34,775 nt of DNA from positions 1 through 34,775 of the forward strand of contig JAFZMV010000007.1 in the NCBI GenBank assembly GCA_017553205.1, given 5' to 3'. This document shows, one piece after another, positions 12,663 to 19,177 of the stretch. This stretch comes from Selenomonadaceae bacterium. GTDB lineage: Bacteria > Bacillota > Negativicutes > Selenomonadales > Selenomonadaceae. The notes under the pieces were generated by a model that had not been told where the DNA came from, made no database searches, and was given only the letters and a program-made list of their open reading frames with translations. Each line of letters starts with the position of its first letter. Position 1 is the stretch's first letter. Made by a program: the position numbers and the translations under genes.

Positions 12663-15038
12663 TTATCGTACGTCTTCGCCGTATCTTGCTTTAATTGCCG
12701 CTTTATGATTGTACATAGCGACATCAGCTTTTTTCGCTACTGTAGAGAACTCCATGCCCTGTTCATAAGTTCCAAGCCCGTAAGCTACGGAAACATTCAG
12801 CATGTCATCGCCTGCTTGAAAACGTTCTTCAGCCAATTTTACATCAAAAAGTTTGAGAAGTGCTTTTCTGTTGTCATAGTCTTGACCTTCCAAAACCGCC
12901 GCAAATTCATCTCCGCCGATTCTGTAAACAGGACTGTTTTCAAAAACTTCTTGAATTACTTTGGCGGCATGTTTAAGAAGTTCGTTGCCTGCCTCGTGTC
13001 CGTATTTGTCATTAACTTTTTTCAAGAAGTTTGCATCAAATATAATTACTCCGTAAGCTAAATCCGAAACAATTTTACTTTGTGCATCGAGTTCAGTCGC
13101 TTTTCCGATATAAGCCGCCGCGTTTCTTAGTCCCGTCAATTTATCGCGGTAAACATAAATTTCTAATTTTGTAGCCATTTCGCTGATACTTCTTACTAAA
13201 ATTCCAAGCTCGTTGCCGGAGTCATAAGAAATTTTTACATTCAAGTCGCCTGATGCAATACGTTTTGCTGCCTCTGTCATACCTGCAAGCGGTTTAACGG
13301 CTTTTGATGCAAAAGTTATACTGAGTATAGAAATTAACATTGCAACAAATATAATCGCCGCGATTAAGTGCATTAAAATAGAGTTGCGATCTCTGTTAAC
13401 ATCAATTAAAGGAGTTGAAATTCCCAGCCACATTCCGTTTGTCAAATAAACTTCCATTTCTTGATATTCGGGATTAGGTTGGAAAATTTCTCCCTGTGCC
13501 TGATTTCTGTGATAAAGTATAACGTTGTTTCTGTTCATTACATAGACATAACCGTAATTGTATATTGACATTCTACGCAGTTCTTGAATAATGAAACCGA
13601 AATCTATATCCATTCCGACTACGCCTATAAATTTTCCTTCAACATATAACGGTGCAACATAAGAAACAACATAATTTTTTGTCAAAGGATCTAAATAAGG
13701 TTCAATCCATGTCGAAGTTCTGCTTCTCATCGGAGTATAAAACCAGCCGACATTTTGAAGATCGTCGGAAGAATATAAAGAAAGATCCACAGGTTGACGT
13801 TCTTTAAACGGTGAAAGCGTTCCTTCCCAGCGGGCGTTTTCTCTGCCCATAGAAAAACCGCCTTTAGGTCCTGCAATTTCCGGCGTTAATCTCAAATAGA
13901 AGGCAATACTTCCGTCCATTTCCGATGCGATGAAGTTAAAATTTTTCTTCATTTCAGCAAGACGGCTGTTTCTGTAAGCCTCATCTTTCGTCAATTTTTC
14001 GTAACTGTCAATCATACTTGTTGCTTGAAGTCTCATGCCGTCTACTGCCTGACGAACAGAAAAGAAAGTTCTGTACAATCTTTCACGGCAAATAACACTC
14101 ATCGCCCGCAGTGAATCTTCTGTATGATCGTTTACAAGTTCACTCATAGCCAATGAACTTCCCAAGCCCAAGACCGACGCAGAAAAAAATACTGACTGTG
14201 TTACCAAAAATACAACTTCCAACATTATGGAACGTCGATAACGAAGCAGCAAATAAAGCATTAAGACAAGATAAATATCAGTCATGGAAACACATTCCAA
14301 AATAAAGTGCATCCAAGTTTCTATGTTGTCCATTCCGTAAATTTGATATTTTTCAAAATATGCAAGAGCTACAGGAAAGGGAATATAAAATCCCAATGCA
14401 ATTCTCCATGCTTTGCTTGTTTCGTTTGAAGGTTCATGCTGTGACAGTGAAGCATTATGAAATTGAAATTTTCTGCTGACCAAAAAGAAAAACCATGCCA
14501 AGTCAAAAAATATTACCGTGAAAAAATCATTCGCAAAGCAAGTCAGAGCATAAGCTAAAACTGCTGAAGATTTTCCCAAGCCGAACATGCCGATAACTGT
14601 TTCAAAATCCGACGCAGGTGCCATCAACGTTCTAAATATTGAAGTAATGGCGAAAGTGATAGCAATTACTATAAGAAATTTTCGGAGGGTATGCACAGAG
14701 AGGAAAAAATTTTTTTCGAAGTCAATCCAATTTTTATGCCAAAGATAATAAGGAAGGTACGCGGCAAGAAATATCCACAACATCCACACGAAATACATCA
14801 ATTTTTCCGTGAAGTCGAGTTCTGCCAAAAAGAAAGTATTCATAGACGGAATTACCAAAAGTCCGCCGAAGTATACGCCAAATGCCGCCACAGGTCCCCA
14901 CATAAGACCGAGCATCGGCGGTATAAATGACGCGATACTTATAATTTTTTCAGGGATTTCCAGCACATGCCCTGCAAAAGTTGCGACGAACCAATACAGA
15001 AAAGCCGATGCTAAAAATCTTGAGAATTTGCTGTTCAC
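12663..15038 (-). CDS. Membrane diguanylate cyclase: multi-TM, Cache, HAMP, GGDEF
   Basis: Diguanylate cyclases make cyclic di-GMP from two GTP. Residues 1-320 contain about eight membrane helices; about 330-550 is an extracytoplasmic Cache-type sensor, including a G-V-V-G-M-D-I-D-F segment; a membrane helix follows; HAMP is at about 576-626; and the GGDEF domain fills the C-terminus with an intact GGDEF at 708-712. The RxxD inhibitory site that normally precedes GGDEF is absent (FENS at that place), so product inhibition is probably lacking. The gene starts 14 bases after a TRAP-type binding lipoprotein gene. A periplasmic ligand handed over to the sensor is a reasonable inference. Confidence 0.9.
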   Translation of the reverse strand: MNSKFSRFLASAFLYWFVATFAGHVLEIPEKIISIASFIPPMLGLMWGPVAAFGVYFGGLLVIPSMNTFFLAELDFTEKLMYFVWMLWIFLAAYLPYYLWHKNWIDFEKNFFLSVHTLRKFLIVIAITFAITSIFRTLMAPASDFETVIGMFGLGKSSAVLAYALTCFANDFFTVIFFDLAWFFFLVSRKFQFHNASLSQHEPSNETSKAWRIALGFYIPFPVALAYFEKYQIYGMDNIETWMHFILECVSMTDIYLVLMLYLLLRYRRSIMLEVVFLVTQSVFFSASVLGLGSSLAMSELVNDHTEDSLRAMSVICRERLYRTFFSVRQAVDGMRLQATSMIDSYEKLTKDEAYRNSRLAEMKKNFNFIASEMDGSIAFYLRLTPEIAGPKGGFSMGRENARWEGTLSPFKERQPVDLSLYSSDDLQNVGWFYTPMRSRTSTWIEPYLDPLTKNYVVSYVAPLYVEGKFIGVVGMDIDFGFIIQELRRMSIYNYGYVYVMNRNNVILYHRNQAQGEIFQPNPEYQEMEVYLTNGMWLGISTPLIDVNRDRNSILMHLIAAIIFVAMLISILSITFASKAVKPLAGMTEAAKRIASGDLNVKISYDSGNELGILVRSISEMATKLEIYVYRDKLTGLRNAAAYIGKATELDAQSKIVSDLAYGVIIFDANFLKKVNDKYGHEAGNELLKHAAKVIQEVFENSPVYRIGGDEFAAVLEGQDYDNRKALLKLFDVKLAEERFQAGDDMLNVSVAYGLGTYEQGMEFSTVAKKADVAMYNHKAAIKARYGEDVR

Positions 15039-15052
15039 TTCCTACCCTCCTT

Positions 15053-16093
15053 TTAAAAATTTTTATCCATGTCTATGCGAAATGCTTTACACGCCTCCGC
15101 ACCGTATTTTTTCTTAAGTTGTTCGCGAAGAGGAGCAACCTTTTTTTTGAAAACTTCCAATTCTTCGGGAGTCAGGTCTATAATTTCTAAACCGTCTTTG
15201 GCAAATTGTACTCTGATTTTTGCTTCTTCCGCCTCTAAATAATCTCTGCCCCATTCGCAGGCTTCTCTCATTTTTACGCGGAGAAGAGTTCTTGTTTTCG
15301 GTTCAAGCTGTTCAAAAGTTTTCCGATTGATAACAAAAAGATAATTTTCATAAAGGTAATTCCAAACCGTCATATATTTTTGGATTTTATCAAGATTTCC
15401 CGATCTCATCAGAAAAAATCCGTTTTCCTGTCCTTCGATAACATTTTGACGAATGGCAATATTTAATTCGCTCCAGCCAAGCGGTATCGGATCTGCTCCG
15501 AGTGTAGAAAAGAAAAGTCTGTAAACTTCTCCGCCAAGTACACGAATTTTCATGCCTTGAAGGTCTTGAGGACTTCTCATGGGGTTGCGGTTGCTTGTAA
15601 GTTGTCGCATGGCGTTATGAGTTGAGCCGAGATAAATTAAACCATATTCAGACAAAATTTTTGCGTAATAATCTCCGCCCGTTTCGTCAATAACTTTTCT
15701 TGCCTCTTGATAACTTGAAAATGACCAAGGAATTGTCGCAACTTCCAAACGCGAATCTAAAAGCGACATAGTTCCGGAAACATAAGCACCCATATCGACT
15801 GCACCTTCTGTAAGAGATTTTACAGCCTCGTTTGTATTGCCGCCTGTCAATTCGTCGTTGGGATAAAATTCAATTTGAACATTACCGCCTGACGCATCTT
15901 TTACCAGCTTTGCAAAACGTCTTGCAGTCAATGTTTCGATTCCTATATCCGTACCGTTTGCTGTCATTACCAGCCGAACTTTTTGATATTCTTCCCCGTG
16001 TTTTGATGATTCGTCATTATGTTGCGTTGAACAGCCGCTCAAGAAAAACATCATCACCAATGACAAAAAAACAGAAAACGCCCGAAACCGCAT
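15053..16093 (-). CDS. TRAP-type (DctP) solute-binding lipoprotein
   Basis: DctP proteins bind organic acids outside the cytoplasmic membrane and deliver them to DctQM membrane proteins. The 346-residue protein has a lipoprotein signal (LSGC, Cys21) and the DctP core, with the conserved L-Q-G-M-K-I-R-V segment around residue 168 and the G-x-x-E-G-Q-E-N-G region around 205-215. The arginine that grips the carboxylate is normally in the K-I-R segment. I start at 16093 because GGGAGG lies ten bases upstream; the longer frame to 16135 has no ribosome site. No DctQ or DctM gene is present. Instead it precedes a Cache-GGDEF protein by 14 bases, so it probably serves as a sensor subunit rather than for import. 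Confidence 0.88.
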   Translation of the reverse strand: MRFRAFSVFLSLVMMFFLSGCSTQHNDESSKHGEEYQKVRLVMTANGTDIGIETLTARRFAKLVKDASGGNVQIEFYPNDELTGGNTNEAVKSLTEGAVDMGAYVSGTMSLLDSRLEVATIPWSFSSYQEARKVIDETGGDYYAKILSEYGLIYLGSTHNAMRQLTSNRNPMRSPQDLQGMKIRVLGGEVYRLFFSTLGADPIPLGWSELNIAIRQNVIEGQENGFFLMRSGNLDKIQKYMTVWNYLYENYLFVINRKTFEQLEPKTRTLLRVKMREACEWGRDYLEAEEAKIRVQFAKDGLEIIDLTPEELEVFKKKVAPLREQLKKKYGAEACKAFRIDMDKNF

Positions 16094-16271
16094 TACATTT
16101 TTTCCTCCCGTCCATATCAAGAGAATTTTCAACAAATTTATCTGCTTTTATATTCTGCAGAAAATTCTTCATTAAACAGCCGTAAAAAAATTGACTTCAC
16201 ATACTCTAAAATTTCTTATCAAGATTAAAGGGAATATTACCATAAAAATCTGAAAATTAATAGAGTACATT
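16094..16271. other. dctP leader region, no gene
   Basis: No coding frame is convincing here. A nine-base inverted repeat, AGAATTTTC (16122-16130) and GAAAATTCT (16160-16168), lies 30 to 75 bases upstream of dctP, with a TTCTGCAGAA palindrome at its inner edge. It could be an operator or leader hairpin. No clear promoter was found. Confidence 0.3.
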
Positions 16272-16281
16272 AGCGGAACTT
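16272..16281 (+). repeat. Target-site duplication, left copy
   Basis: AGCGGAACTT directly abuts the left end of the element at 16282 and is repeated exactly at 16495-16504. Confidence 0.75.
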
Positions 16282-16494
16282 CACGGGCGTTTCATAAATT
16301 AGTCAAAGTGGGTTGACTTTTAAAAATTTGGATTGCTTTTTCACGAATTTCAAAATTTGCTACAAATTTTTTAAGATGGTATGAAAAAATTTTAAAAAAA
16401 TCGGCAAATAAATTTCAAAAAAGTTATACATTCCACCATTTTTATAAAAATTTTTCTTCATTCCGAGAGAAAAAAATTTTATGAAACGCCCGTG
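16282..16494. mobile_element. 213-bp MITE-like element with 17-bp inverted ends
   Basis: The left end CACGGGCGTTTCATAAA (16282-16298) is the exact reverse complement of the right end (16478-16494). The flanks carry an exact ten-base direct repeat, AGCGGAACTT, as expected of a target-site duplication. The interior is very AT-rich, encodes nothing recognisable, and contains a subterminal hairpin (AGTCAA/TTGACT, 16301-16318). The GC-rich tips stand out against this background. It is best explained as a non-autonomous element mobilised by a transposase elsewhere. Duplications of 10-12 bases are known in the IS4/IS231 group; I cannot assign the family from the ends alone. Confidence 0.8.
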
Positions 16495-16504
16495 AGCGGA
16501 ACTT
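16495..16504 (+). repeat. Target-site duplication, right copy
   Basis: Exact copy of the ten bases at 16272-16281, directly abutting the right inverted end. Confidence 0.75.
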
Positions 16505-16552
16505 GTATTTGCAAATTTCATGAGTCAGAAATTATTTTTTTTCTAAATTTTT

Positions 16553-16936
16553 TCAAGCAAGTTTTCTGATACTTCTTGAACGAACTGCACTGGAATTTAT
16601 TTCTTCAAGATTTTTATTCAGCTGTGACTCTACCGCCGCAATAAAAGTTCCTTCAGCAAGTGGGCAGTCAAGAATTTTCAAATTAAAATTTTTCAAAATT
16701 TCTACAGCCATTTCAGCCGATAAAATTGAACTTCCAATATCAGCAATAATTGCAACTCCGTCATCTGAATAAATTTTTTTTATTGCATTTATAATTTTTC
16801 TGCAACTTGTCCCCGTGCTACCGTCGTCCATTCCTCCCGCCGCAATCATAGGAACATCAGGAGCAGTCATTCTTGCAACCTCAACAACTCCTTCAGCAAG
16901 TTTTCTGCTGTGTGAAACTACAACTATTCCAACCAT
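16553..16936 (-). CDS. dhaM: DhaM-type phosphotransferase subunit (EIIA-Man fold), orphan
   Basis: DhaM relays phosphate from the PTS protein HPr to ADP bound on DhaL for dihydroxyacetone phosphorylation. The 127-residue protein matches the DhaM EIIA domain: V-V-V-S-H-S-R-K-L-A-E-G-V places the phosphorylated histidine at residue 9, and A-A-G-G-M-D-D-G-S-T-G-T-S and A-D-I-G-S-S-I-L-S-A-E follow. I start at the ATG at 16936 with GGGAG nine bases upstream, rather than at the TTG one codon earlier. DhaK and DhaL are not adjacent, unlike in most operons; the carbonic anhydrase gene lies 77 bases upstream. The MITE lies just downstream and may have separated it from former neighbours. Confidence 0.82.
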   Translation of the reverse strand: MVGIVVVSHSRKLAEGVVEVARMTAPDVPMIAAGGMDDGSTGTSCRKIINAIKKIYSDDGVAIIADIGSSILSAEMAVEILKNFNLKILDCPLAEGTFIAAVESQLNKNLEEINSSAVRSRSIRKLA

Positions 16937-17013
16937 CAAAAAAATCTCCCAGCAAGTTTTTTATTTTCAACTGCCATTAATACGATGAAAAACGATGATA
17001 ATCTGAGTTTAAT

Positions 17014-17568
17014 TTAAAGGTCTTCAAAATTGTCCTGCCACTGACTTTTTACAATATACTGAACGTATTCCATAGCACATTCGTGATATTTCATTGCAGA
17101 TGCTCTAAGTGCCTCCATTTCATCATCACGAATGGCACGCATAATTTTTGCAGGATTTCCGAAAACCAAAGAATTTCTCGGAATTTTTTTGTACTGCGTC
17201 AAAAGAGTTCCCGCACCGATAATACAATTTTCTCCAATTTCGGAATAGCCCAAAATTATTGAACCCATTCCAACTAAACAATTATCCGCAATTTTTCTGC
17301 AATGAATAATTGCATTATGACCGACCGTCACATAATTTCCGATTTCAGTCGGTACGTCACCCATAACATGAACAGTTGAATTATCTTGAATATTTGTAAA
17401 TGCTCCAATTTTTACCGGCTGTAAATCTCCGCGAACCGTAACACCAAACCAAATACTTGATCCCGTTCCAATTTCAACATCACCGATAACTGACGCAGTA
17501 GGAGCAACAAAAACATTTTCCGCGATTTTCGGCTGTTTCCCTTTGTATGAAAGTACAATACCCTGCAT
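17014..17568 (-). CDS. Gamma-class carbonic anhydrase-like hexapeptide protein
   Basis: The 184-residue protein is a left-handed beta-helix of hexapeptide repeats, such as IGDVEIG, IGAFTNI and IGENCIIGAG. Three histidines in the gamma carbonic anhydrase positions (H67, H84, H89) would bind the metal, and R46, D48 and Q61 also fit the family pattern. Such proteins (YrdA/PaaY/CaiE type) hydrate carbon dioxide or act as uncharacterised metalloenzymes. I start at 17568 because GGGAGG precedes it; the longer frame to 17646 has no ribosome site and reaches a terminator. A zinc- or iron-dependent activity is expected but not shown. Confidence 0.88.
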   Translation of the reverse strand: MQGIVLSYKGKQPKIAENVFVAPTASVIGDVEIGTGSSIWFGVTVRGDLQPVKIGAFTNIQDNSTVHVMGDVPTEIGNYVTVGHNAIIHCRKIADNCLVGMGSIILGYSEIGENCIIGAGTLLTQYKKIPRNSLVFGNPAKIMRAIRDDEMEALRASAMKYHECAMEYVQYIVKSQWQDNFEDL

Positions 17569-17644
17569 TTTTTTTAACCTCCCAAAATTTTTGTGACTGA
17601 AATAAATTCTGCAGTATAAAAATTTTTCCTGTAAATTAAGCAAC

Positions 17645-17683
17645 AAAAAACTCCCTGTCCGAAATTTTATTCAGAAGAGAGTT
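17645..17683 (-). terminator. Terminator of the beta-glucosidase gene
   Basis: On the minus strand AACTCTCT (17676-17683) pairs with AGGGAGTT (17649-17656), one pair being G-U, followed by a T-run (17645-17650). It lies 25 bases after the stop codon. Confidence 0.6.
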
Positions 17684-17707
17684 TTTTTTAAAGTTTCAAA
17701 TAATTTT

Positions 17708-19177
<1,470 letters not shown>

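Follow-up and report, generated by a model that had tools for sequence, protein, structure and literature searches.

The 213-bp element lying between dhaM and dctP in the window, that is, in the whole stretch of 34,775 nucleotides of Selenomonadaceae DNA that was analysed, is an ISAs1-type MITE. Very probably it is moved in trans by an insertion sequence (IS) with the same ends, and the family of the two shows a preference for insertion 17–20 bp upstream of the −35 box of promoters, probably under guidance by RNA polymerase. As a MITE the element is ordinary; what seems to be new, and is well supported by sequence, is the target rule of the family to which it belongs.

The Element and Its Surroundings

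The element occupies positions 16282–16494 (plus strand), as read directly from the window sequence. Its ends are formed by the inverted repeat CACGGGCGTTTCATAAA, present at 16282–16298 (plus strand) and, with a 17/17 match, at 16478–16494 (minus strand); the terminal inverted repeat reaches 18 bp once the adjoining T/A of the duplication is included. On both sides it is bordered by the exact 10-bp direct repeat AGCGGAACTT, an unstranded target-site duplication with its left copy at 16272–16281 and the identical right copy at 16495–16504. A subterminal hairpin, AGTCAA-AGTGGG-TTGACT, is located at 16301–16318 (plus strand), within a left subterminal block of about 45 bp that is conserved in sister MITEs according to their alignment, and no other notable inverted-repeat feature is present in the element. 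The RNA of the element folds far better than its shuffled versions (z −6.0 and −5.2), chiefly by means of the end-to-end stem. No credible open reading frame was found, the longest mechanical ORF overlapping the 213 bp having 53 codons, and an Rfam scan of positions 15000–18000 gave no family apart from one chance-level match. The first-pass annotation of this DNA had described exact 17-base inverted ends, an exact ten-base flanking direct repeat, a subterminal hairpin and a non-coding interior, all of which are confirmed, and its proposal of a MITE with an intact target duplication is borne out by the sister copies and by a full IS with the same ends, both presented below.

The same annotation correctly placed the element between dhaM and dctP. 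The gene downstream of the insertion, dctP (15053–16135, minus strand), encodes a TRAP transporter solute-binding protein (PF03480, E = 1.8e-61), and its neighbour on the other side is dhaM (16553–16939, minus strand; TIGR02364, E = 2e-34). The adjacency of the two genes (window 16234–16535) seems peculiar to this genome, since the best matches of dhaM and dctP are found on separate contigs in the congeners examined; in 65 congeners nothing matches the DNA between dhaM and dctP. At 16234–16262, on the minus strand, there are weak promoter-like boxes oriented towards dctP (TATTAA at 16262–16257, N17, TAATAT at 16239–16234; 6/12). At the register described below for the family, the window copy scores 6/12 on the dctP side and 6/12 on the dhaM side, neither above chance; the target rule is therefore claimed for the family and not for the window copy. 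An effect of the element on dctP is a matter of speculation.

The Parent Insertion Sequence

The first-pass annotation had proposed a search for a full IS with the same ends, and such an IS, complete and 1168 bp long, is located on contig 99 of the home genome (G000:C99:8264-9431). It contains an intact ORF of 359 aa, whose product matches the ISAs1-family transposase model NF033564 with E 1.8e-91 and 306.6 bits against a cut-off of 70, as well as the Pfam models DDE_Tnp_1 and DDE_Tnp_1_assoc, while the IS4 model yields 30.9 bits against a cut-off of 115. Residues D102, D165 and E289, which presumably constitute the DDE triad, are each found in 12 or 13 of the 13 family members aligned, which range as far as cyanobacteria and gammaproteobacteria. 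Some 40 contigs end in fragments of the transposase gene, as would be expected for a repeat whose many copies break up an assembly. Homology between the MITE and the IS is confined to about 19–22 terminal bp, plus an 18-bp AT-rich match; as they share so little past the terminal 19–22 bp, the MITE did not arise simply by a recent deletion within the contig 99 IS.

Copies of the Element and Its Sisters

In the 2.39-Mb home genome the 17-mer end occurs 123 times (at most 3 mismatches) versus 15 times for the reversed control, a copy number far beyond chance. The census of ends comprises about 20 left and about 20 right IS ends near-identical to those of the contig 99 copy (the assembly is a 171-contig draft, in which most full IS copies are known from their ends alone), as well as, for the main 213-bp MITE subfamily with its near-identical copies, about 8 left and about 8 right ends. 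Diverged MITEs of 93–213 bp are also present in the home genome, the 93- and 97-bp sisters retaining just the two subterminal blocks. The window element combines a length of 213 bp and the lack of a gene with 17/17 repeats, several dispersed copies and ends matching those of an autonomous IS of its home genome. Other copies, for which the first-pass annotation had likewise proposed to look, are present both in the home genome and in the congener G057, and the MITE reading stands.

The window MITE is 70–73% identical to two assembled 212–213-bp sisters and to a 203-bp element in G057. Its sole close relative in the assembly is the copy on contig 137, 98% identical over 154 bp, with a partly decayed end. 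The insertion had been regarded as fairly recent, and the duplication is indeed intact, but in view of its 70–73% identity to the assembled sisters the window MITE represents an older or separate subfamily, outside the recent burst. The 9–10-bp duplications of the sister MITEs differ in sequence (ATTTTTAGT, ACGATGTTGA, and TTCTATACAA in G057).

The termite-gut bacterium Lactococcus hodotermopsidis (G154; loci L102, L116, L301, L309, and L316) likewise has a family of MITEs in which these 17-bp ends are combined with 9–10-bp duplications, in the form of five 241–242-bp elements with the duplications AACTACAGG, ATGGCAAGG, ATAATTTTC, AGTTTTGGAC, and CACGTTGTAT; this suggests that either the parent IS has spread horizontally or the ends have been conserved.

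It is also worth noting that the home genome contains a second family of small repeats, with the ends TTACTCCGACGA...TCGTCGGAGTAA and TA targets, seen at L142 (G000:C36:26000-27478), at L135 (G000:C5:1-3000) and at dozens of further sites; by their target only, these repeats look IS630/mariner-like. A 323-bp element on contig 36 is a 213-bp ISAs1-type MITE with a TTACTCCGACGA repeat nested inside, the MITE on contig 145 representing the empty site. At L135:4-377 (G000:C5:4-377) there is a 374-bp element in which a copy of the TTACTCCGACGA repeat is enclosed by two IS left ends in inverted orientation, which match the IS with 97% identity over 126–143 bp.

Insertion Upstream of Promoters in the Home Genome

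When the flanks of 79 isolated ends are stacked and read outward, enriched bases appear at positions 20–25 and 43–48, and these correspond to TTGACA-N17-TAAAAT/TATAAT, directed away from the element. The outward order is the 9–10-bp duplication, about 9 bp, and then a sigma70/sigmaA promoter (TTGACA-N17-TATAAT) with its −35 box starting at base 18–21. Promoter scoring at every register reveals a single sharp peak, again with the −35 start at base 18–21. A promoter of at least 8/12 is found there at 49 of the 79 isolated ends versus a control rate of 8.5%, and one of at least 10/12 at 30 of the 79 versus 0.46%; the binomial p values, about 1e-32 and about 1e-49 to 3e-49, respectively, refer to pooled control registers and treat the ends as independent, which is true only roughly as there are two ends per element. 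Any other four-base register has 3–10 ends with at least 8/12 and 0–1 with at least 10/12, and in shuffled flanks the number of ends with at least 10/12 averages 0.25 and never exceeds 3.

The peak is contributed by IS left ends (14/21) and IS right ends (17/22), thus by 31 of 43 IS ends, and by 13 of 27 MITE ends, a figure that pools all MITE end classes; its presence at IS and MITE ends alike is as expected if one transposase moves both. Either end of an element can face a promoter in the home genome. About 38% of the isolated ends are without a good promoter, a proportion that could reach about 50% if each element had a single promoter. An extended −10 motif, TGn, is present in 21 of the 41 best sites, and the outward ORF starts at a median distance of 90 bp from the end. 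In promoter coordinates the element edge is located near −56 and the duplication at about −55 to −46; the positional spread of the −35 and −10 boxes is similar (sd 1.6 and 1.9). The contig 137 copy, the 98% sister of the window MITE, sits at the register as well: TTTATTTCTG AAATTTCC TTGACA N17 TATACA, with the −35 box at base 19.

Repeated Insertion at One Promoter

Element ends facing each other at close range form 10 junctions in the home genome, and the spacer in each of them is 9–11 bp; no junction spacer of another size was found there in the range from −5 to 60 bp. In the nine traceable junctions the outer flank of one element bears the same 9–10-bp word, and in all nine a promoter of at least 9/12 follows this duplication at base 19–20. 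The simplest history would be one of stacking, from T-promoter (T, the duplicated target) through element-T-promoter to element-T-element-T-promoter: the duplication and the promoter survive the insertion, therefore the same site can be used again. An origin of the tandem elements as IS-circle or dimer products was set aside because the spacers are identical to the flanking duplication and the elements joined by them are of different types. Insertion at the element's own TTCATA box, located at the register, was also considered as a source of the tandems and explains them less well than re-use of the outer promoter (9/9 traceable).

The Target Rule in Other Genomes

With the register kept as fixed in the home genome, other genomes that contain the 17-mer were tested, namely at least three Selenomonadaceae assemblies, one Ruminococcaceae assembly and L. 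hodotermopsidis. In these genomes 42 of 89 ends have a promoter of at least 8/12 (control 10%) and 25 of 89 one of at least 10/12 (control 0.7%; p about 3e-33).

The nearly closed genome G194, from the same family and a different genus, contains six complete ISAs1 copies of 1242 bp, with 18/18 ends and 9–10-bp duplications. On the left side of these copies a TTG-type −35 box or TGGACA is found at base 19–20 in 6/6, three of the sites scoring at least 8 and one 12/12. The left end is thus turned towards the −35-like box in all six (L353, L355, and L357–L360), unlike in the home genome, which suggests that insertion of ISAs1 in G194 is oriented. In G496, a distant member of the phylum, a 1624-bp IS with the ends CAGGGCAAAATCATTTAA and a transposase of 31% identity has promoters of 12, 11, 10, and 8 of 12 at base 19–20 in four of its five copies. 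For ISAs1 elements of Firmicutes, with two types of ends, the target rule is thus secure. ISAs1 copies in G553, G439, and G570, the bounds of which were not delimited, were left out.

The same 17-mer ends are also present in alphaproteobacterial assemblies, at L380 (G643) and L068–L119 (Alphaproteobacteria PG1894), and one alphaproteobacterial genome with this 17-mer encodes an ISAs1 transposase of 54% identity. The register signal at the alphaproteobacterial ends is 0/12. Among gammaproteobacterial ISAs1 elements the signal is weak or absent, 3 of 16 ends having at least 8/12 versus 0–2 per control register. A dependence of targeting on the host, alphaproteobacteria versus Firmicutes, would be informative.

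Mechanism and Alternative Explanations

The anatomy of the MITE, the ends it shares with the IS, the intact transposase, the promoter register and the repeated hits appear in the DNA itself; mobilisation of the MITE in trans by the ISAs1-family transposase is suggested by the shared ends, duplication length and target register. In the proposed mechanism, the gene-less MITE would be moved by the transposase of the 1168-bp IS, which has about 20 near-identical copies. IS and MITE would be inserted alike, with a 9–10-bp duplication and the element edge 17–20 bp upstream of a −35 box, the targeted sigma70/sigmaA promoter pointing away from the element and the duplication covering about −55 to −46. 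Both the promoter and the duplicated target would outlast the insertion, and a renewed hit would give head-to-tail elements with one copy of the duplication between them. The transposase would be guided by RNA polymerase bound at the promoter instead of by DNA alone. In a broader form, it is somewhat more probable than the contrary that ISAs1, at least in Firmicutes, is a second branch of bacterial DDE transposases, unrelated to the first, in which promoter-guided insertion evolved independently, probably by docking on the holoenzyme at about −50, that their MITEs inherit this behaviour and that promoters collect stacks of elements.

The alternative with the strongest claim, though a less probable one, is that the transposase reads the −35/−10 DNA or its shape directly, with no role for RNA polymerase. 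The −35 box is indeed the closer and better-placed part of the target, the six G194 copies all have a TTG-type −35 box at base 19–20 and only one of them a perfect −10 box, and the element's own end has TTCATA at the same register. However, the enriched signal comprises the two boxes at their 17-bp spacing together with the extended −10 motif and reaches about 48 bp from the insertion; this counts against direct reading, being far for a transposase that duplicates 9–10 bp. Very unlikely is an explanation without any targeting, by which insertion is random and selection keeps only the copies upstream of promoters. In a gene-dense genome insertions in coding DNA are lost, as this explanation holds, yet selection would not prefer base 19–20 to base 30 or 40, the register holds to within about ±1 bp with neighbouring registers in the same intergenic DNA at background, and repeat insertions reuse exactly the same 9–11-bp target.

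From the ten-base duplication the first-pass annotation had drawn a hint at the IS4/IS231 type, and it had considered that the element may act as a terminator. That the element is an IS4/IS231-type MITE, perhaps a terminator or regulator of dctP, is highly improbable. A 10-bp duplication fits several families, and 146 bp separate the element from the annotated start of dctP downstream of it, and 48 bp from dhaM, which it follows. The family hint is nevertheless wrong because the IS that shares these ends has a transposase of the ISAs1 family; membership in IS4/IS231 was rejected with this transposase far under the IS4 cut-off, and no IS4/IS231-type IS with CACGGGCGTTTCATAAA ends was seen in the home genome. 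As for the terminator, no terminator-like site was found in the region and no T-run follows the terminal stem, while promoter-like sites are as numerous in the region as in the average shuffle. Scarcely credible is movement of the MITE by a promoter-targeting Mutator-type transposase, ISLre2/ISKra4-like, that recognises the same ends: those families do insert at a similar place (PMC3942029), but the transposase of the full IS with CACGGGCGTTTCATAAA ends is of the ISAs1 type and the target register is found for this IS as well, and the complete ISAs1 copies with duplications in G194 and G496 likewise combine an ISAs1 transposase with the register.

Significance and Comparison with Known Elements

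The landing site of a mobile element decides whether a gene is killed or rewired. Insertion at a fixed point shortly before the −35 box leaves the gene and its core promoter intact but replaces the region bound by activators and by the alpha subunit of RNA polymerase. If this is true for ISAs1, promoter guidance arose more than once in bacteria and becomes testable with a small and common IS, and in little-studied genomes ISAs1 elements would conveniently mark real promoters. No report of promoter targeting by ISAs1 was found in the literature searched, with subscription papers mostly outside it, which is weak evidence of absence.

The elements presented here resemble other prokaryotic MITEs in being shorter than 500 bp and in having inverted ends, an AT-rich interior and, in young copies, direct repeats (PMC10969869); they differ in that the parent IS is known in the same genome, the target rule is defined and targets are reused. 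With the IS231/IS4 family they share an overlapping duplication length. The ISAs1 family is described as having 14–22-bp ends that begin with CAGGG and 10-bp repeats (PMC11946415), and the 17-bp ends starting with CA and the 9–10-bp duplications fit this description, as they do a range of 8–10 bp for the duplication, while the transposase scores as ISAs1 by NF033564; 10-bp duplications were also found at six plasmid ISAs1 copies. Unlike the published ends, those found here start with CACGG, and CACG ends recur in the second complete ISAs1 IS, that of G194, so it is the published CAGGG motif that seems too narrow, and not the IS that falls outside the family. The strong promoter-upstream register is a further difference from the family as described.

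The closest parallel is offered by TnGBS/ISLre2 (p-MULT 3) and ISKra4 (p-MULT 4) elements, whose insertions likewise lie at a constant distance upstream of sigmaA promoters. Guerillot et al. in 2014 reported their insertion 15–17 bp upstream of such promoters, considered it unique to two lineages of the Mutator superfamily, and proposed that the transposase contacts the RNA polymerase initiation complex (PMC3942029). In those elements the −35 box starts about 15–17 bp past the end of the right repeat, and in the ISAs1 elements analysed here at base 18–21. Elements with symmetric ends have promoters on both sides (PMC3942029); this is seen in ISKra4-group ISs with near-symmetric repeats, as in the near-symmetric IS described here. 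By model, however, the transposase of the latter (NF033564, DDE_Tnp_1, DDE_Tnp_1_assoc) is unrelated to theirs: the ISAs1 elements share the behaviour of the Mutator elements, not their membership.
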